From positions 1 through 64,000 of the forward strand of contig SVLJ01000001.1 of assembly GCA_015067995.1 (NCBI GenBank): a stretch of DNA of 64,000 bases, read 5' to 3'. Source of the stretch: Oscillospiraceae bacterium (lineage in GTDB: Bacteria > Bacillota > Clostridia > Oscillospirales > Oscillospiraceae). The notes under the pieces were generated by a model. The model searched no databases. It was not told where the DNA came from and saw only the letters and a program-made list of their open reading frames with translations. How positions within the stretch are numbered: position 1 is the stretch's first letter; every line of letters starts with the position of its first letter. A program made the translations under genes and the position numbers. This document shows positions 5,030 through 31,177 of this stretch, one piece after another.

Positions 5030-5782
5030 TCAGATTTGCTTGATAGAATGGATGCGGATACTGTTGACATGAGTACCAAGCAGCTCTGCCAGTGCGGCAG
5101 AGATGGCGGCCATCATGTCAGGACGGACGGGCGCGGGAACGCCGACGCCGGACAGCTGTCTGATGGAATGAATACGGATGTTGCTCACATGCGTACCCAA
5201 GTTTTCGGCCAGTGCGGCGGAAACAGCAGCAACCATACTGGGCTGTACAGGTGCTGCCATCTGGACGCTCTGCCCGGACAACTGTCTGATGGAGTGGATG
5301 CGAATGTTGGTAACATGAGTGCCCAGAGCCTCAGCCAGTGCAGCGGAAACAGCAGCCACAGTCTCAGGCAGTACGGGGGTGGCGACAGGCACGCTGACAG
5401 CGGCCTCTGCACCGGATAACTGCCGGATGGAGTGGATGCGAATGCTGCTGACCTGAGTGCCCAGAGCTTCCGCCAACGCAGCGGAAATGGCAGCTACGGT
5501 CTCGGGGCGGACCGGTGCGGCAGGTGCAGCTGTGGGAATGGCGGCAGGTGCGGCCACGGGGGTGGCGGCGGGTGCAGCCGAAGGCACGGCGGCAGGTGCG
5601 TAAGCAACCGGTGCAGCGGGAACAGGAACTGCCTCAGGAGCGGGGGCGGAGGTAGGGACTGGGGTCACGGGCGCTGCAGGAGTCGATGATGTATCTGCAG
5701 TCGTTTGCCGTCGATTCTTCAGCAAGAGATAGCAGACCAAAACGGCCATCACAATGCCCACAACCAGAATGGGACTATCCAT
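5030..5782 (-). CDS. OadG/gamma-like membrane subunit with four tandem repeats
   Basis: The start ATG 5782 follows AGGAGG. One N-terminal membrane helix (residues 3-22, then KNRR) and a long Ala/Pro linker (about 31-90) are typical of sodium-pump decarboxylase gamma/delta subunits. Four near-identical units of about 33 residues follow at 91-124, 137-170, 179-212 and 219-250, each of the form AAxSAALAExLGTxVxxIRIHSIRQLSG. Gamma-type subunits of this class, as I recall them, carry one such segment, so this is a four-fold expansion. It is the first gene of the operon and probably anchors the soluble subunits to the membrane. Confidence 0.78.
   Translation of the reverse strand: MDSPILVVGIVMAVLVCYLLLKNRRQTTADTSSTPAAPVTPVPTSAPAPEAVPVPAAPVAYAPAAVPSAAPAATPVAAPAAIPTAAPAAPVRPETVAAISAALAEALGTQVSSIRIHSIRQLSGAEAAVSVPVATPVLPETVAAVSAALAEALGTHVTNIRIHSIRQLSGQSVQMAAPVQPSMVAAVSAALAENLGTHVSNIRIHSIRQLSGVGVPAPVRPDMMAAISAALAELLGTHVNSIRIHSIKQI
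5033..5512 (-). repeat. four tandem coding repeats inside the OadG-like gene
   Basis: Units at 5411-5512, 5273-5374, 5147-5248 and 5033-5128 (about 100 bp each) encode the four LGTxVxxIRIHSI segments. They are separated by short variable Ala/Pro/Val spacers of 6 to 12 codons. DNA similarity between units is high enough for slippage or unequal recombination. Confidence 0.85.
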
Positions 5783-23082: not shown

Positions 23083-24705
23083 ATGGAGAAATTGAAAGAG
23101 AACCAGATTTATACCGGCACGGTGGAAGGGTATTCCAGCGAAGGTCTTGGCATCATCAAGCTGGACGGAGCCGTGGTGTTTGTGCCGCATGCGATCCGCG
23201 GCGAAGAAATTGAACTGAAGATTACCAAGGTGATGAAGACCAGCGCGGCGGGAAAAATCGTAAAGATCCGCAAGGAATCACCGGAACGTATGAAACCGGA
23301 GTGCCCCTATTACGGGCAGTGCGGAGGCTGTGACTTCCAGCACCTGAGCTATACGGAGGAACTGTGGGCCAAGCGTCAGCGGGTGCAGGATGCCCTGACC
23401 CGGCTGGGCGGCACGGACATCATGGTGGAGGAGATCCTCGGAGCAAAGAATCCGCTCCACTACCGCAATAAGAGTCAGTATCCTGTGGGCGCAGACGGCT
23501 CTGTGGGATTCTACAAGGTGCGCAGCCATCAGGTGGTGGATGTGAAGCGCTGCCAGATACAGACGGAGGAGAGCGATGCCACAGCCCGCGCAGTGGCGGA
23601 ATGGATGCGCCGCTATCGTGTGGCGCCCTATGATGAGCATACCGGCAAGGGTCTGGTGCGCCATGTCTATGTGCGTACCAACCGGAAGGGGGAGACCCTG
23701 TGCTGTGTGCTGGTGAACGGAAAGGGACTGCCCCGTGAAGCAGAGCTGGTGGGGTATGTCCGGAAGGCTGCACCGAAGACTGTTGGTGTCGTGCTGGGGG
23801 TCAATACCAGCCGCAGCAACGTGATTCTGGGGGAGAGCTACCGTACCATCTGGGGTGAGGATTATCTGATGGACACCCTCTGCGGTCTGCAGTTTAAGCT
23901 GTCGGTACCCTCATTTTATCAGGTGAACCGTGATCAGGCGGAGGTGCTGTATAACAAGGCGCTGGAGTTTGCTGGACTCACCGGCACGGAGACAGTTCTG
24001 GATCTTTACTGCGGTACCGGCACCATTACCCTTTGCGTGGCAAAGCAGGCCGGCCGTGTCATCGGCGCGGAGATCGTACCGCCTGCCATCCGGGATGCCA
24101 GGGAAAACGCGGAACGCAACGGTATCGCCAATGCGGAGTTTTTCTGCGGCGACGCGGCAGACATTGCAGCAAAACTGGAATCCGAGGGCCTGCGTCCGGA
24201 TGTGATTGTGGTAGACCCACCCAGAAAGGGGCTTGCACCGGAGGTCATTGCCTCGGTCTGTGAAATGAAGCCGCAGCGAGTGGTGTATGTTTCCTGTGAT
24301 CCCGCCACTCTGGGCAGGGATGTGAAGATTTTTGCACGGCTGGGCTATACTGCTTCCCGTGCCGCGGCAGTGGATCTGTTCCCGGGAACCAAGCATGTCG
24401 AGACGGTATGTTTATTGTCCAAACTTAATGCAAAGCAACATATCGAGATTAACTTGGATATGGACGAGCTGGATTTGACCGATGCGGAGGAGAAAGCTAC
24501 CTACCAGGAAATCAAAGATTATGTGTTGGAGCATAGCGGCTTGAAAGTCAGCAGCTTGTATATCGCACAGGTGAAACAGAAGTGCGGCATCATCGAGCGA
24601 GAGAATTATAATAAGCCGAAGTCTGAGGACGCTAAACGGCCCCAATGCCCGCCGGATAAAGAAAAAGCAATCAAAGAGGCGTTGACGCACTTCGGTATGA
24701 TTTAA
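23083..24705 (+). CDS. rlmD: 23S rRNA (uracil-5)-methyltransferase RlmD/RumA with a foreign C-terminal extension
   Basis: ATG 23083 (MEKLKENQIYTG) follows GGGAG by 7 nt. The 540-residue protein has a TRAM domain (about 5-60), 4Fe-4S cysteines (CPYYGQCGGC at 74-83), a SAM motif LDLYCGTGTITL and the catalytic cysteine in YVSCDPATLGRD. Ordinary RumA proteins end soon after the HVETV motif (residues 438-442 here). This one continues for about 95 residues ending NYNKPKSEDAKRPQCPP...LTHFGMI, with more A/T-rich codons. I recall this tail from ends of Clostridia mobile elements. The enzyme core is intact, so it is probably still active. Confidence 0.9.
   Translation: MEKLKENQIYTGTVEGYSSEGLGIIKLDGAVVFVPHAIRGEEIELKITKVMKTSAAGKIVKIRKESPERMKPECPYYGQCGGCDFQHLSYTEELWAKRQRVQDALTRLGGTDIMVEEILGAKNPLHYRNKSQYPVGADGSVGFYKVRSHQVVDVKRCQIQTEESDATARAVAEWMRRYRVAPYDEHTGKGLVRHVYVRTNRKGETLCCVLVNGKGLPREAELVGYVRKAAPKTVGVVLGVNTSRSNVILGESYRTIWGEDYLMDTLCGLQFKLSVPSFYQVNRDQAEVLYNKALEFAGLTGTETVLDLYCGTGTITLCVAKQAGRVIGAEIVPPAIRDARENAERNGIANAEFFCGDAADIAAKLESEGLRPDVIVVDPPRKGLAPEVIASVCEMKPQRVVYVSCDPATLGRDVKIFARLGYTASRAAAVDLFPGTKHVETVCLLSKLNAKQHIEINLDMDELDLTDAEEKATYQEIKDYVLEHSGLKVSSLYIAQVKQKCGIIERENYNKPKSEDAKRPQCPPDKEKAIKEALTHFGMI
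24394..24414 (+). other. probable left attachment junction (attL) in rlmD
   Basis: The codons for HVETVCL mark the point where normal RumA sequence and CTG-rich codon use stop and the element-type tail begins. The bases CGAGACGG here correspond to GGAGAGCG at the right junction (31111-31118); only GAGA is identical, consistent with the short shared core of serine recombinases. Confidence 0.5.
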
Positions 24706-24716
24706 GGAGGGCGGAT

Positions 24717-24965
24717 ATGACGCATTTGATTTCTTGTGAGTTCAACATGGATACTGCCTGCGTTGAACTGAAATTCACCGATGGCAGCATGATTGCGATT
24801 GATACTATCGCTGTGGAGAATGAAGTTGCCGATAATATGTATCAGAGGTCGGAACTGGATTATCTGATCTACAATGACCCGATAGCATATGCTGATCTGA
24901 TACTGAACGGCGATCCGGCAATATATTTGAAAACAGTAACTGAATATAAATCTCTTGATAAATAG
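24717..24965 (+). CDS. DUF6061-like small protein
   Basis: ATG 24717 follows GGAGGGCGG, only 11 nt after the rlmD stop. The 82-residue soluble protein (VELKFTDGSMIAIDTIAVENEV, then YQRSELDYLIYNDPIAYADLILNG) matches, from memory, a short family seen at the ends of Clostridia integrative elements and named DUF6061. No catalytic motif is visible. It is followed by a strong hairpin terminator. It supports the mobile origin of this stretch. Confidence 0.72.
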   Translation: MTHLISCEFNMDTACVELKFTDGSMIAIDTIAVENEVADNMYQRSELDYLIYNDPIAYADLILNGDPAIYLKTVTEYKSLDK

Positions 24966-25011: not shown

Positions 25012-25118
25012 ATTCTTTCGTCTTAATACAGATTTAATGCCAGTTTTTATACGCTAATACCCATTTCATGGATGAAGTGCGATAATAAATACAGAATACT
25101 CCCAATGGAGGGATGGGC

Positions 25119-26447
25119 ATGATTACGATAAAAAAACGCTTATCTTCATCACAAATTATTATTCTCGGGTTTGCCGGTGCTATTTTGTTTGGCAGCATTC
25201 TTCTGACGCTTCCTTTTTCTACTCGGGATGGGCATGGTGCTTTGTTTTCAGATGCTTTGTTTACCGCAACATCCGCTGTCTGTGTTACCGGACTGGTAGT
25301 ACAGGATACGGCAACCTATTGGAGCACATTCGGGCAGGCAGTAATTATTGCGTTGATTCAAATTGGCGGTATGGGTGTTGTCACCGTTGCTATTGCCATT
25401 TCATCCTTCTCTGGAAAGCAAATCAGTCTGAAACAGCGCAGCACAATGCAGGAAGCTATATCTGCCCATAAAGTGGGCGGGATCGTCCGACTAACCGGAT
25501 TTATCATTAAGATGACGATTATCTTTGAACTTCTTGGTGCTGTCATCATGGCTCCGACATTCTGTAAGGAGTTCGGCGTGCTGAAAGGAATATGGTATGC
25601 CGTATTCCACTCCATTTCCGCATTTTGTAATGCCGGATTTGATTTGATGGGCGTAAAAACACCGTATTCCTCTCTTGCATATTTTGTGGATAATCCGGTC
25701 ATCAATTTTGTAATCATGTCGTTAATCATAATCGGCGGTATTGGATTCATGACGTGGGATGACATTAAGGTAAATAAGCACCATGTTCGAAAATACAGGA
25801 TGCAAAGCAAGGTTATCCTGATAACTACTGTACTTCTGATTTCACTTCCAGCTCTGTACTTTTTCTTATTTGAGTTTGGAGACAAACCGATGGGCGAACG
25901 CATTTGGAGTTCCTTATTCCAGTCCGTTACGCCAAGGACTGCAGGATTCAACACCGCAGACTTGACGCAGATCAGCGAAACAGGTACAGCAATCACTATC
26001 ATGCTGATGCTCATCGGCGGTTCCCCCGGTTCAACGGCAGGCGGTATGAAAACCACAACACTCGCTGTTTTGTTTTCTACCGCAATCTCTGTATTCAGAC
26101 GCAGGGAGCATACACACTTTTTCGGGCGCAGAGTGAATGACGATACTATCAGAAATGCAGCAACAATTCTGATGATGTATGTCATCCTGTTCCTGACAGG
26201 CGGGTTCTTGATTAGTCACATTGAAAGTCTTCCGTTGCTTACCTGCTTGTACGAAACAGCGTCCGCAATCGGAACGGTCGGATTAACTCTCGGCATTACA
26301 CCAAATCTTGGAATTGCATCTCAGATCATTCTGATTGTCTTAATGTACATTGGCAGAGTGGGAGGACTAACACTGATCTTCTCGGCTCTCTCAGGGAATC
26401 AAGGAAATACGGCACGGCTGCCGCAGGAAAAGATAACGGTTGGCTAA
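25119..26447 (+). CDS. TrkH/KtrB family potassium uptake channel subunit
   Basis: ATG 25119 (MITIKKRLSSS) lies six bases after GGAGGG. The 442-residue membrane protein has the four pore-loop repeats with their filter glycines: TSAVCVTGLVV, ISAFCNAGFDL, SVTPRTAGFNT and ASAIGTVGLTL. This is the KtrB/TrkH fold, which imports K+ (sometimes with Na+). The partner TrkA/KtrA gene overlaps the ORF end region and begins 10 nt after the stop. Base composition is more A/T-rich than the flanking host genes. No clear promoter was found in the 107-bp leader. Confidence 0.94.
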   Translation: MITIKKRLSSSQIIILGFAGAILFGSILLTLPFSTRDGHGALFSDALFTATSAVCVTGLVVQDTATYWSTFGQAVIIALIQIGGMGVVTVAIAISSFSGKQISLKQRSTMQEAISAHKVGGIVRLTGFIIKMTIIFELLGAVIMAPTFCKEFGVLKGIWYAVFHSISAFCNAGFDLMGVKTPYSSLAYFVDNPVINFVIMSLIIIGGIGFMTWDDIKVNKHHVRKYRMQSKVILITTVLLISLPALYFFLFEFGDKPMGERIWSSLFQSVTPRTAGFNTADLTQISETGTAITIMLMLIGGSPGSTAGGMKTTTLAVLFSTAISVFRRREHTHFFGRRVNDDTIRNAATILMMYVILFLTGGFLISHIESLPLLTCLYETASAIGTVGLTLGITPNLGIASQIILIVLMYIGRVGGLTLIFSALSGNQGNTARLPQEKITVG

Positions 26448-26457
26448 GGAGGTACCT

Positions 26458-27105
26458 ATGAAATCCATATTATTAATTGGGCTTGGTCGTTTTGGCAGAC
26501 ACATCGCCCTAAAGCTGAACGCTTTGAACCATCAGGTGATGGCTATTGATCACAATGAGGAACGTGTAAATGCGTTGCTGCCCTTTGTAACAAATGCACA
26601 GATTGGTGACAGCACAAACGAAGAATTTCTTGCGGCTCTTGGCGTTGGAAACTACGATGCCTGTATCGTAGCGATTGGCGATAATTTTCAAAATTCGCTG
26701 GAAACTACATATCTTCTGAAAGAACTTGGCGCAAGAAAAATCATTGCCAGAGCATCAAAGGAAATGCAGGAGAAGTTTCTCCTGCGAAACGGTGCTGACG
26801 AAGTGGTTTATCCGGAGAAGCAGCTGGCAGCATGGACAGCGATCCGTTGTTCCTCTGAACATATTCTGGAGTACATCGAGCTGGATGATGAATATGCCAT
26901 TTTTGAGGTGGAGATACCATCCGATTGGAGCGGCAAAAGTATTCTGGAACTGGATATTCGAAAAAAACATGGTATCAACATCCTCGGAGTCAGAACAAAT
27001 GGAAAACTGAATATGAACATTACTCCAAACACAGTGTTTGGACATGGCACATCTGTTTTGGTACTTGGTCAAGAAAAAGCAGTTCACAAGTGTTTTCGCA
27101 TTTGA
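26458..27105 (+). CDS. TrkA/KtrA family potassium uptake regulatory subunit
   Basis: ATG 26458 (MKSILLIGLGRFG) follows AAGGAGG. The 215-residue protein has a RCK N domain (GLGRFGRHIALKLN; acidic ligand residue in AIDHNEE) and a C-terminal RCK C domain (about 140-215). It forms the cytosolic gating ring of the TrkH/KtrB channel and binds ATP/ADP or NAD(H). It is a one-domain pair type (KtrA-like) rather than the doubled TrkA of enterobacteria. Confidence 0.93.
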   Translation: MKSILLIGLGRFGRHIALKLNALNHQVMAIDHNEERVNALLPFVTNAQIGDSTNEEFLAALGVGNYDACIVAIGDNFQNSLETTYLLKELGARKIIARASKEMQEKFLLRNGADEVVYPEKQLAAWTAIRCSSEHILEYIELDDEYAIFEVEIPSDWSGKSILELDIRKKHGINILGVRTNGKLNMNITPNTVFGHGTSVLVLGQEKAVHKCFRI

Positions 27106-27675: not shown

Positions 27676-27740
27676 TTGTTTACATCTGATCGGTGGAAAA
27701 AAGAAATTCTTTGTGATAAAATATTAAAAAGGAGGTGAGG

Positions 27741-29726
27741 ATGATGACACAGAGCAAACAGGAACAAAAAAGAATGGATTCGAATGAGCACATCCTTGCT
27801 TGCCTTTCTTCCGCCCCTTCCAACGCAAAAATCATCCGAACTGCGGCACGAATGGCAAATGCCTTTGGCAGCCAGTTTACGGCTTTGTTTGTGGAAACAC
27901 CGGATTTTTCTGTTGCTTCGAAAGAAAACAAAGAACGTTTGCAGGAAAACCGGAAGCTGGCAGAACAGCTTGGAGCTAATATTGAAACCGTGTATGGCGA
28001 AGACATCCCATATCAGATTGCAGAGTTTGCACGCATTTCGGGTATTACAAGAATCGTTCTTGGACGTAGTGCTGTTACCCGCCGCCATCTGTTTGGAAAG
28101 CCGACTTTGACAGAATTGCTCCTGACCTACGCTCCGGATATCGACATACATATTATTCCGGATAAAACCGTTGACACCACATATTACCCCAAAAGAGCGA
28201 GAAAAAAGCATCATAATCTGCGTGTGCTGAAAAATGCATTCACAAGTCTGCTCATTTTGCTTTTTGCAACGCTATTAAGTCTGCTTTTTCATGAGGTCGG
28301 CTTTACGAACCCCAATATCATCATGGTCTACATTCTTGGGGTTCTCTTGACCTCTGTCGCCACATCACATCAGATATATAGTTTGATATCTTCTGTTGCC
28401 AGTGTGTTTGTTTTCAATTACCTGTTTACGGAGCCTCGTTTTTCACTGACGGCTTATGAAACCGGTTATCCGGTCACCTTTGTGGTTATGTTTCTGACCG
28501 CTTATATTACCGGTACGTTTGCCATTCGTTATAAGGAGCAGGCACGAGAGTCCACGAAGATCGCACGCCGCACAAAGGTTCTGTTTGATACGGATCAGAT
28601 GCTTTCCAAGGCACATGGACGAAATGAGATCATTCATGTGGCTGCTGAACAAGTTATGAAACTGTTGGGACGAAGCATTGTAATTTTTGACAATCTGAGC
28701 GGACGGTTGTCAGAGCCGATCCTATTCCATACAAAAACAGACAAGACATATGATTGGGGAAAAGAACAGAAGGCTGCGGAGTGGGCATTGAAAAACAATC
28801 ATGCTGCCGGTGCCACAACGGAATTGTTCCCTGAGAGTCACTATCTATATCTTGCGATTCGGGTTAATGAACGGGTATACGGTGTAATTGGAATTGATGC
28901 TTCTGCCGGGGAACTTGATGCGTCTGAGCATGATGTTCTTCTTTCAATCCTCGGTGAAACCGCACTGGCTTTGGAAAACAATCGAAATGCTCGTGAAAAA
29001 GAAGCCGCTGCCATTTTAGCGGAAAGTGAACAGCTTCGTGCAAATCTGCTCAGGACAATCTCCCACGATCTACGTACTCCGTTGACTACCATTTCCGGCA
29101 ATGCCAGTAATCTGCTCAATAATGCGGAATATTTCGATCAAGAGACAAAGCAACAGATATACGCTGATATTTATAATGATTCCATGTGGTTGACCGATCT
29201 GGTTGAAAACCTGTTATATGCCACACGAATCGAAGATGGGTGTATGATGCTGCAGACATCTACTGAGCTGCTCAGCGAAATGATAGAAGAAGCGATGCAG
29301 CACATCGGCAGGAAAGCAGCGGCCCGTCCGATCAGGGTAGTTCAAGAGAATGAGATCCTGCTGGTCAAAGCTGATCCCAAGCTGATTGTTCAAGTCATCA
29401 CTAATATTGTAGATAATGCGTTGAAATACACGCCTGCCGACACTGCTATTACGCTGACGGCAAAAAAGACAGACGACATGGCGGAGATCAGGATCGCAGA
29501 TACAGGCAGAGGTCTTTCAGATGAAGAAAAACGGAAAGTTTTTGATAAATTTTACTGTGGCAAAAATAAAATAGCGGATAACCGTCGCAGTCTTGGCTTG
29601 GGACTGTATCTCTGCAAGGCAATTGTCGAGGCGCATGGAGGAGCAATTCGTGTTGAAGACAATCAGCCGCAGGGTGCTGTCTTTAGCTTTACTCTTCCGC
29701 TGGAGGAGGTTGTTTACCATGAATAA
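27741..29726 (+). CDS. KdpD-like sensor histidine kinase lacking the classical N-terminal KdpD domain
   Basis: Start at ATG 27741 or 27744 (AAGGAGG 5 or 8 nt upstream). The 661-residue protein has a USP-like domain (about 15-140), four membrane helices of the DUF4118 type (about 160-260), a GAF-like region (about 280-415), the phosphoacceptor box TISHDLRTPLTTI with His near 441, and an HATPase domain (NIVDNALKYTP, ADTGRGL, LGLGLYLCK). The roughly 230-residue Walker-containing KdpD domain of the classical protein is absent. It probably phosphorylates the KdpE-like regulator encoded next, in response to K+ or osmotic state. Confidence 0.9.
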   Translation: MMTQSKQEQKRMDSNEHILACLSSAPSNAKIIRTAARMANAFGSQFTALFVETPDFSVASKENKERLQENRKLAEQLGANIETVYGEDIPYQIAEFARISGITRIVLGRSAVTRRHLFGKPTLTELLLTYAPDIDIHIIPDKTVDTTYYPKRARKKHHNLRVLKNAFTSLLILLFATLLSLLFHEVGFTNPNIIMVYILGVLLTSVATSHQIYSLISSVASVFVFNYLFTEPRFSLTAYETGYPVTFVVMFLTAYITGTFAIRYKEQARESTKIARRTKVLFDTDQMLSKAHGRNEIIHVAAEQVMKLLGRSIVIFDNLSGRLSEPILFHTKTDKTYDWGKEQKAAEWALKNNHAAGATTELFPESHYLYLAIRVNERVYGVIGIDASAGELDASEHDVLLSILGETALALENNRNAREKEAAAILAESEQLRANLLRTISHDLRTPLTTISGNASNLLNNAEYFDQETKQQIYADIYNDSMWLTDLVENLLYATRIEDGCMMLQTSTELLSEMIEEAMQHIGRKAAARPIRVVQENEILLVKADPKLIVQVITNIVDNALKYTPADTAITLTAKKTDDMAEIRIADTGRGLSDEEKRKVFDKFYCGKNKIADNRRSLGLGLYLCKAIVEAHGGAIRVEDNQPQGAVFSFTLPLEEVVYHE

Positions 29727-30417
29727 ATTTCAAATATTGGTTGTTGAGGACGATGCGCCTGTACGCAACCTGATCACCACCACATTAAGGGCGAATAACT
29801 ATCGCTTTATTACTGCCGGAAGCGGTGAATCTGCTGTGTCAGAAACCGCATCACACAATCCGGATATTATTTTGCTGGACTTGGGGCTGCCTGATATTGA
29901 TGGCGTGGAGGTTATTCGGCGCATTCGCAGTTGGTCGAATGTCCCTATCATTGTAATCAGCGCCCGTAGTGAGGACAGTGACAAAATTGATGCATTGGAT
30001 GCCGGGGCGGATGACTATCTTACGAAACCATTTTCTGTTGATGAGCTTCTTGCCCGACTGCGTGTTACGCAGCGCAGGATCGCCTTGATGCAAAGCATCG
30101 GCAATGAGCAGGCGATCTATCAGAACGGCGCTCTAAAGATTGATTATTCTGCCGGATGCGCTTGGATGGGCGAAGAAGAATTGCGTATGACGCCCATGGA
30201 ATATAAGCTCCTATGTCTTTTGGCGAGAAACACAGGCAGAGTGCTTACTCACAAATTTATTTTACAGAATGTGTGGGGAAGCAGTTGGGAAAATGATGTT
30301 GGTACCCTTCGTGTGTTTATGGCAACACTGCGAAAAAAGCTGGAGACAGCACCCGGTTCTCCGCAATATATCCAAACCCACATTGGCGTGGGCTATCGGA
30401 TGCAGAAGGTGGAATGA
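29719..30417 (+). CDS. KdpE-like OmpR family response regulator
   Basis: The start is ATG 29719 (MNKFQILVVEDDAPV) after GGAGGAGG; it overlaps the kinase stop by 8 nt, whereas the ORF track starts far too early. The 232-residue protein has a receiver domain with the phosphoacceptor in LLDLGLPDIDG, the SARSE switch and KPFSVDEL, and a C-terminal winged helix ending IGVGYRMQKV. No kdpFABC genes are nearby, so it probably regulates the linked TrkH/TrkA-type genes instead. Confidence 0.93.
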   Translation: MNKFQILVVEDDAPVRNLITTTLRANNYRFITAGSGESAVSETASHNPDIILLDLGLPDIDGVEVIRRIRSWSNVPIIVISARSEDSDKIDALDAGADDYLTKPFSVDELLARLRVTQRRIALMQSIGNEQAIYQNGALKIDYSAGCAWMGEEELRMTPMEYKLLCLLARNTGRVLTHKFILQNVWGSSWENDVGTLRVFMATLRKKLETAPGSPQYIQTHIGVGYRMQKVE

Positions 30418-30464: not shown

Positions 30465-30514
30465 AAAACCGCTGCAATTTTCATCCCTGCAGGGATGGAG
30501 ATTACAGCGGTTTT
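30465..30514 (+). terminator. long terminator hairpin after the kdpE-like gene
   Basis: AAAACCGCTG...CATCCCTG pairs with CAGGGATG...CAGCGGTTTT over about 24 bp with a few mismatches; the stem ends in TTTTGTATTTT. Confidence 0.85.
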
Positions 30515-30536
30515 GTATTTTCTGAGGAATGGTGTC

Positions 30537-30794
30537 AAACTGCATTTTTACAGTTTGGGTACCATTTTCGAGGAAAATATGTGGGTGTCCAGAGGGATGC
30601 AATCCCTCGGCTCTGGGTTTCCAATAGGGGCGAGAAGCATCCCTGTTGGCACACGATTTTGCTTGCAAAATCTAGTGTGTTATACCTTTTGCGACCGCTG
30701 ACGCTGGAAAGGGACTGTCCCACGCTCGACAGACACTTTCCGGCTGTTCGGGTGTAGTTGGCATAGGAAACCTTGCAGCGAAGCGGAAAGGTTT
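30537..30794. other. chain of consecutive hairpins, no convincing gene
   Basis: The gap 30418-30867 holds no recognised gene. Hairpins follow each other: AAACTG/CAGTTT (30537-30556), ATTTTC/GAAAAT (30564-30578), CCAGAGGGAT.../...CTCTGG (30589-30616), CCAATAGGGG/CCCTGTTGG (30621-30649), CACACGATTTTGC/GCAAAATCTAGTGTG (30650-30679) and AAACCTT/AAGGTTT (30768-30794). A minus-strand ORF (30535-30804) crosses all of them. The density suggests a structured RNA or folded DNA element of the mobile region. Confidence 0.5.
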
Positions 30795-30867
30795 TCTGTG
30801 ACAACGGGGGCGCAAGAGGTATATAAAACCCGCCGCAGCATCCGTCTCTCCCGTCAGTGAAACCACC

Positions 30868-30927
30868 ATGGCAACTCCAAGAAAAACTGAATATAAAAAC
30901 AATTTACGCTTTGCTCTCGTCTTTTGA
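30868..30927 (+). pseudogene. truncated start of an Arc-like small DNA-binding protein gene
   Basis: The reading frame MATPRKTEYKNN... matches, from memory, the beginning of a common small Arc/ribbon-helix-helix protein of gut Clostridia elements (continuing normally with a YDRI...VPKGKK region). Here it changes after 12 codons and stops (LRFALVF*). The break coincides with the start of recombinase homology in another frame, so a deletion probably joined the two genes. Confidence 0.5.
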
Positions 30928-31115
30928 CAAAATCTATGCTATGATGACCAAAGAAGAGCGGCGATCGCTAATTAAGTATCTGATCTCCGATGTTCAGCTA
31001 TATATGCCGGAGGAACGCAAGATGAAGGCTCGTTTCTGTAAGTCCATAACATACAGATTCCCGATAGAGAAAGAAGTGCTGGCAGAATTTAGCGACAGCG
31101 GAGTACACGTGGAGA
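30904..31115 (+). pseudogene. C-terminal remnant of a large serine recombinase
   Basis: The frame reads TIYALLSSFDKIYAMMTKEE then RRSLIKYLISDVQLYMPE and ITYRFPIEK, the pattern of the last part of Clostridia large serine recombinases (coiled region followed by a beta-rich end). The catalytic and zinc-ribbon domains are missing. The remnant is read through into HVESVVLL, which is homologous to the HVETV stretch of RlmD, marking the right junction. It was probably the integrase of this element. Confidence 0.62.
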
Positions 31116-31120
31116 GCGTT
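31106..31120 (+). other. probable right attachment junction (attR)
   Basis: Codons for HVESV, aligned with HVETV of RlmD at 24394. Identity at DNA level is limited to short runs such as GAGA, as expected for a serine recombinase crossover between unlike attB and attP. Confidence 0.45.
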
Positions 31121-31177
31121 GTGCTGCTGACAACAGGTGATCCCGTCGAAAATACGGCAGCTGAGGTTTGTGTATGA
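31112..31177 (+). pseudogene. displaced native 3' end of rlmD
   Basis: After the junction the frame reads SVVLLTTGDPVENTAAEVCV and stops at 31177, overlapping the ATG of the next host gene as ATGA. RlmD proteins normally end shortly after HVETV, so these 20 codons are the likely original end, separated from the rest by the insertion. Inference from position, length and homology. Confidence 0.5.

Follow-up and report, generated by a model that had tools for sequence, protein, structure and literature searches.

The window, as the whole stretch of 64,000 nucleotides analysed here is called, very probably contains what is left of an integrative mobilisable element, which entered the rlmD gene site-specifically, by way of an att site inside its own large serine recombinase (LSR) gene, with a swap of the two gene ends. 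In the proposed mechanism, the att site of the element, at the VETVxLLS codons, separates the LSR core from a C-terminal domain some 95 residues long. One peptide, VE[TS]V[VC]LL, is encoded in a shared frame by att in the LSR gene and by att in rlmD, so that strand exchange at the HVETV codons would give RlmD the tail domain of the LSR; reciprocally, the LSR would lose its tail and gain the short end of the host rlmD. An internal deletion has stripped most of the LSR from the copy in the window. The support, at sequence level, comes from both ends of the element, from LSR genes that run in frame into the tail, from bimodal LSR lengths, from breakpoints at att and from the internal deletion.

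The two ends of the element

RlmD gives a full match to the TIGR00479/rumA model (E 2.8e-131, residues 28–449 of a frame of 549 residues if the upstream TTG is taken as its start), and on reading the open reading frame the motifs SCDP and DPPRKG are intact, as is the catalytic motif VSCDPATLGRD. In the family-model search, the final 95 or so residues lie beyond this match. The first-pass annotation had described them as a foreign, A/T-rich tail with the motifs KATYQEIKDYVLEH and QCPPDKEKAI, and this description holds: both motifs are present, and the GC fraction is 0.447 in the tail, 0.581 in rlmD, 0.445 in the cargo and 0.529–0.532 in the flanks. RlmD proteins of element-free members of the same genus lack the tail and end at most about 20 residues from HVE[TS]V. 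The tail had been placed at the normal end of RlmD, at HVETV; the extension is real, but it starts after HVETVCLL, and the HVETV codons are the shared att core. The last native residues of RlmD are re-created by VCLLS, and with these residues re-supplied and the motifs intact, RlmD is predicted to be still active.

The tail is present in 16 of 99 relatives (83 are without it) and somewhere in 79 of 394 genomes of the order. In the first sample of relatives, four of 14 RlmD-fused tails are broken (L007, L010, L011 and L016) while the RlmD body is intact; the tail is therefore probably dispensable for RlmD, and probably a passenger that RlmD tolerates. No family was matched by the tail in a Pfam search, a PDB sequence search gave nothing significant and a PDB fold search with a model of the tail (pLDDT 70) gave no match.

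Features of the rlmD locus and of the putative element (window positions)
Feature	Position	Strand	Evidence
rlmD frame	23083 (ATG; possible TTG 23056)–24705	+	ORF reading
rlmD body, host 23S rRNA U1939 C5-methyltransferase, up to att core	23083–24405	+	TIGR00479 E 2.8e-131; VSCDPATLGRD intact
attL core CATGTCGAGACGGT (codons H-V-E-T-V)	24394–24407	+	similarity to hosts with different rlmD genes begins at 24394–24399
Putative transplanted LSR C-terminal tail domain (95 aa from 24418), present RlmD C-terminus	24408–24705	+	in-frame C-terminus of LSRs; dN/dS 0.03–0.09 among close tails
DUF6061 gene, first element gene after tail	24717–24965	+	PF19537 E 1.1e-42
Cargo: putative Trk-type K+ uptake membrane protein	25113–26447	+	ORF reading
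Cargo: TrkA-like NAD-binding subunit	26440–27105	+	ORF reading
Cargo: KdpD-like sensor kinase	27735–29726	+	PF13493, PF00512, PF02518
Cargo: KdpE-like response regulator (ORF call starts at upstream TTG)	29593–30417	+	ORF reading
Conserved element segment, ending in the last codons of a sigma-factor gene (LELPWWFH-stop, minus strand)	30466–30881	.	90–93% identical to L106 9342–9830; sigma factor by Pfam
LSR remnant, C-terminal codons only, N-terminal part deleted	30878–31117	+	LSR C-terminal HMM E 9.9e-18, model positions 73–157 of 157
attR core CACGTGGAGAGCGT (codons H-V-E-S-V)	31106–31119	+	same model position as attP in intact LSRs
Displaced native rlmD 3' end, VVLLTTGDPVENTAAEVCV-stop	31118–31177	+	sequence reading; similar short ends in tail-less relatives

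The second end of the element, like its decayed state and the published exchange of ends at rumA/rlmD, goes beyond what the first-pass annotation had noted. In length and style, what follows the second core resembles a native RlmD end; its stop codon, TGA, shares bases with the ATG of the next gene (MFS), as in a coupled operon. The two att repeats are identical in GAGA, and the consensus of their cores is CAYGTSGAGASSGT. When the whole genome was searched with a profile of LSR plus tail, exactly two matches were obtained, the left one covering profile positions 150–255 at 24388–24702 and the right one positions 75–164 at 30878–31144 (E 8.4e-19). They overlap at the att segment, which is present twice; one recombinase profile is, to judge from these matches, split between both ends of the element. 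The MFS gene has no close homologue in 98 relatives, among which no empty rlmD site with that neighbour was seen, and a search of phage and plasmid records with the LSR remnant gave no match.

At the deletion joint, the 3' end of the sigma-factor gene runs straight into LSR codons, and one internal deletion would explain the loss of mobilisation, replication and most LSR codons. About 86 C-terminal codons are left of the serine recombinase gene, which is intact in relatives, and no relaxase was seen among the window ORFs between 24.4 and 31.1 kb. Since the element is without LSR and relaxase, it is predicted to be immobile, and the rlmD fusion should be fixed. The conserved segment that adjoins the sigma-factor gene is non-coding and 72–93% identical in many related elements; it is perhaps a candidate transfer origin or regulatory region. 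The DUF6061 gene, correctly anticipated directly after the tail, begins 11 bases past the stop codon of the tail and in the integrated state would share a transcript with rlmD. Of 127 tails examined, 15 are directly followed by it, a subset of elements, and for this reason it was dropped as a candidate general partner or directionality factor. Elsewhere in the window (5030–5782, minus strand), near an oxaloacetate-decarboxylase-like gene, a protein with four imperfect repeats of about 42 residues (AALAEALGTHVTNIRIHSIRQLSG type) is encoded.

Tails on recombinases and their reassortment

The tail had been taken from the outset for the end of the integrase frame of circular elements in Clostridia, expected to become fused to rlmD upon integration, and a search for recombinases ending in the same way agrees with this. 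LSRs in frame through VE[TS] into the tail domain, in an attP-type arrangement, were found in L073, L075, L077, L080, L083, L085, L100, L106, L141, L178 and L202, and in loci from IMG/VR and GTDB the tail forms the in-frame C-terminus of serine recombinases of 640–680 residues with Resolvase, Recombinase and Zn-ribbon domains. By these gene structures, the tail is identified as the native, in-frame C-terminal domain of LSRs of about 650 residues. The C-termini of 46 LSRs are bimodal past VETVVLL, 28 ending after 0–16 residues, 15 after 93–108 and three in between; the two length classes evidently correspond to LSRs without and with the tail.

The closest attP-type relative, L106, has an LSR, a tail (91% identical) and a DUF6061 gene, and its DNA is similar to that of the window from base 24397, a position within the att core, onwards. 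Paired ends 13–16 kb apart and in the same orientation, one being a tail and the other a tail-less LSR, are present in G008, G013, G094, G510, G527, G666, G736, G753 and G772; the tail is mostly on RlmD, and in G510 and G772 it is on a frame without recognised RlmD. In the empty-site comparison, the gene past the LSR end of G013 matches the gene downstream of rlmD in the tail-less G023, with the same gene order beyond. G024 has an RlmD end identical to the LSR C-terminus of L097 (VETVVLMSKVKE). The relatives are mobilisable elements, with a Mob_Pre or MobA-type relaxase (in L106, L026 and L020), a CHC2 primase and a D5-like helicase. That rlmD is an insertion hotspot, as had been claimed, follows from the presence of the tail on RlmD in 63 of the best 80 GTDB loci. 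Misassembly was rejected, since the same fusion occurs in many independent assemblies.

Tails are also found on frames without recognised RlmD or LSR, each preceded by VETV codons (L123, L127, L143, L151, L192 and L201); they probably mark either stacked elements or further att sites, secondary or of another kind. Tandem LSR pairs occur in L092-L099, L101 and L256 (and in L073, L075 and L080), where the first LSR has the tail domain and a C-terminal extension without att junction, and the second has the att junction. In such elements the first LSR would retain its own copy of the tail after integration. Relatives from Anaerococcus and streptococci also have a conserved tail, but there it is in another frame than the recombinase (L038 5827–6285, L084 1791–2249 and L040 4971–5257), with possible internal start codons upstream. 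In-frame exchange is therefore not universal.

Comparison of LSRs points to breakpoints at att. In DNA, L041 and L100 are 80–100% identical as far as the VE codons and 27–67% past them, while L073 and L141 have the reverse pattern, dissimilar before these codons and similar after; G736 and L100 have LSR bodies that are 99.8% identical and tails that are 41% identical. Among 21 LSRs, the identities of the two body halves correlate (Mantel rho 0.77, p 0.0005), whereas body identity shows no correlation with tail identity (rho 0.05, p 0.35). For contiguous LSR-tail genes alone rho is -0.04, and for integrated pairs alone it is 0.44 (p 0.055), so that reassortment of tails among LSRs is, by these measures, strong but incomplete. 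Contiguous LSR-tail genes can be junctions of stacked elements; stacked elements or tandem tails are present at rlmD in G608, L131 and L154. Stacks would provide a route for reassortment, an element that enters the attL of another putting its own LSR before the resident tail.

Origin and role of the tail

Among close tails, dN/dS is 0.03–0.09 over 95 codons, the majority of which are distant from the att core, and there are residues invariant across 52 sequences. In an AlphaFold2 model of the C-terminal part of an LSR, the att-encoded stretch forms a linker, modelled at low confidence, that joins the LSR core to a three-helix tail; this would make a swap of ends tolerable. We infer that the tail serves the recombinase, that integration takes it off the LSR, and that its loss alters the integrated recombinase, the swap acting as a state switch or form of regulation. 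The position of att in the linker between the two domains also allows the tentative suggestion of a combinatorial domain exchange, in which recombination between stacked elements gives an LSR a new tail and integration stores the tail on a host protein. The tail would then both report and set the state of the recombinase (present when integrating, absent when resident), and its variants may tune specificity or directionality.

Other origins of the tail were weighed against transfer from the element's own LSR. It could be an extension inherited by RlmD and captured from rlmD by LSRs, and it does form an uninterrupted RlmD C-terminus in the 63 of the best 80 GTDB loci; this is hardly credible, however, given the 83 of 99 relatives without the tail, the tail-less RlmD proteins ending within some 20 residues of HVE, the different GC of tail and rlmD, and the same domain in LSRs without a preceding att junction, the first members of the tandem pairs L092-L099, L101 and L256. 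Somewhat unlikely is that two different elements, stacked at rlmD, supplied tail and LSR remnant (or that a tail exchange did), the DNA between them having been deleted. The tail is 93% identical to that of G013 and 91% to that of L106, while for the LSR remnant the corresponding identities are only 35% and 42%, and 31–47% to the sampled LSRs; identities of body and tail are generally uncorrelated, and tandem tails at rlmD are seen not only in L131, L154 and G608 but also in C. difficile (PMC4320837). The deletion joint at the sigma-factor end, however, fits one element with the gene order of L106, and the remnant is just some 86 codons of a variable region.

The two remaining alternatives concern what the tail is for. 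It is improbable that it is carried for the sake of RlmD, selected as a replacement or modified C-terminus of that protein rather than as a recombinase domain. The best argument for some role in RlmD is provided by the out-of-frame tails of the Anaerococcus and streptococcal relatives: in these type-B elements (Anaerococcus pAPRE01, L084) the frames of tail and LSR differ, and still the tail is conserved, with a dN/dS of 0.056 for L038a versus L084, although these are just two close sequences and type-B tails have upstream ATGs from which they could be translated alone. RlmD-fused tails are mostly open, but the four broken ones leave the RlmD body intact, and the domain is part of the LSR in many in-frame genes and also in LSRs without att in the gene. 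The tolerance of RlmD for broken tails would also suit a neutral passenger on both proteins, with a conserved frame that merely reflects constraint on the att site; this is very unlikely in view of the low dN/dS over codons mostly far from the att core and of the invariant residues. The preferred reading remains that of a recombinase domain moved onto RlmD by integration.

Relation to known systems

The principle of a reciprocal exchange of ends at rumA/rlmD is already known. Apparently new are the nature of the transplanted piece, a conserved in-frame LSR domain, and the reassortment of tails among LSRs with breakpoints at att; a literature search confined to papers outside subscription found neither in-frame transfer of a conserved LSR domain nor tail shuffling at att. 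On this reading, many odd C-terminal extensions of RlmD in Clostridia would be products of site-specific recombination and not RlmD variants, and a tail on RlmD would be a sequence flag for finding such elements, decayed ones included. The system would also offer natural recombinase domain swapping at a defined in-frame site, and a direct test of the role of the last 95 or so LSR residues.

Among streptococcal ICEs, rumA is a target of serine integrases (Ambroset et al. 2016, PMC4701971), and IMEs are treated in PMC5357655. rumA and the serine integrase gene contain one direct repeat each, and the 3' parts are reciprocally exchanged; the integrase differs in length and C-terminus between the integrated and excised states, and the two forms were suggested to differ in function (PMC4701971). 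The window element shares the target gene and the reciprocal exchange of 3' ends with the serine integrase gene. It has direct repeats within the 2–21 bp range of this element class, insertion in the 3' part of rlmD (attL core at 24394–24407) and a second repeat within the serine integrase gene (attR core in the LSR remnant). It differs in that the streptococcal exchange is reported to shift the reading frame of both proteins (PMC4701971), whereas the LSRs of Clostridia are in frame (that of pAPRE01 is out of frame) and a conserved domain is moved; unlike the streptococcal elements, the copy in the window has also lost its relaxase and most of its LSR.

According to Van Eijk et al. 2015 (PMC4320837), CTn5 of C. 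difficile enters rumA and fuses the rumA ORF to the element ORF CD1844A, with tandem elements there; a CTn7/CTn5 hotspot is described in PMC3158075. As in the window, rumA is thus fused to an element-encoded ORF; in the part of PMC4320837 consulted, CD1844A is not identified as a recombinase domain. In myxophage Mx8, as cited in PMC4701971, attP is within the integrase gene and integration replaces the C-terminal 112 residues by 13, giving a less active enzyme. The integrase C-terminus is replaced on integration, as in the window element; Mx8 differs in having a tyrosine integrase, and transfer of the lost part to a host protein is not reported there. The rlmD gene flanks prophages in Erysipelothrix and other Gram-positives (PMC12785378). 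TnpX of Tn4451, like the tailed LSRs, is a large serine recombinase of clostridial elements, and its residues 598–707 are listed as one of its DNA-binding regions (PMC2810336).
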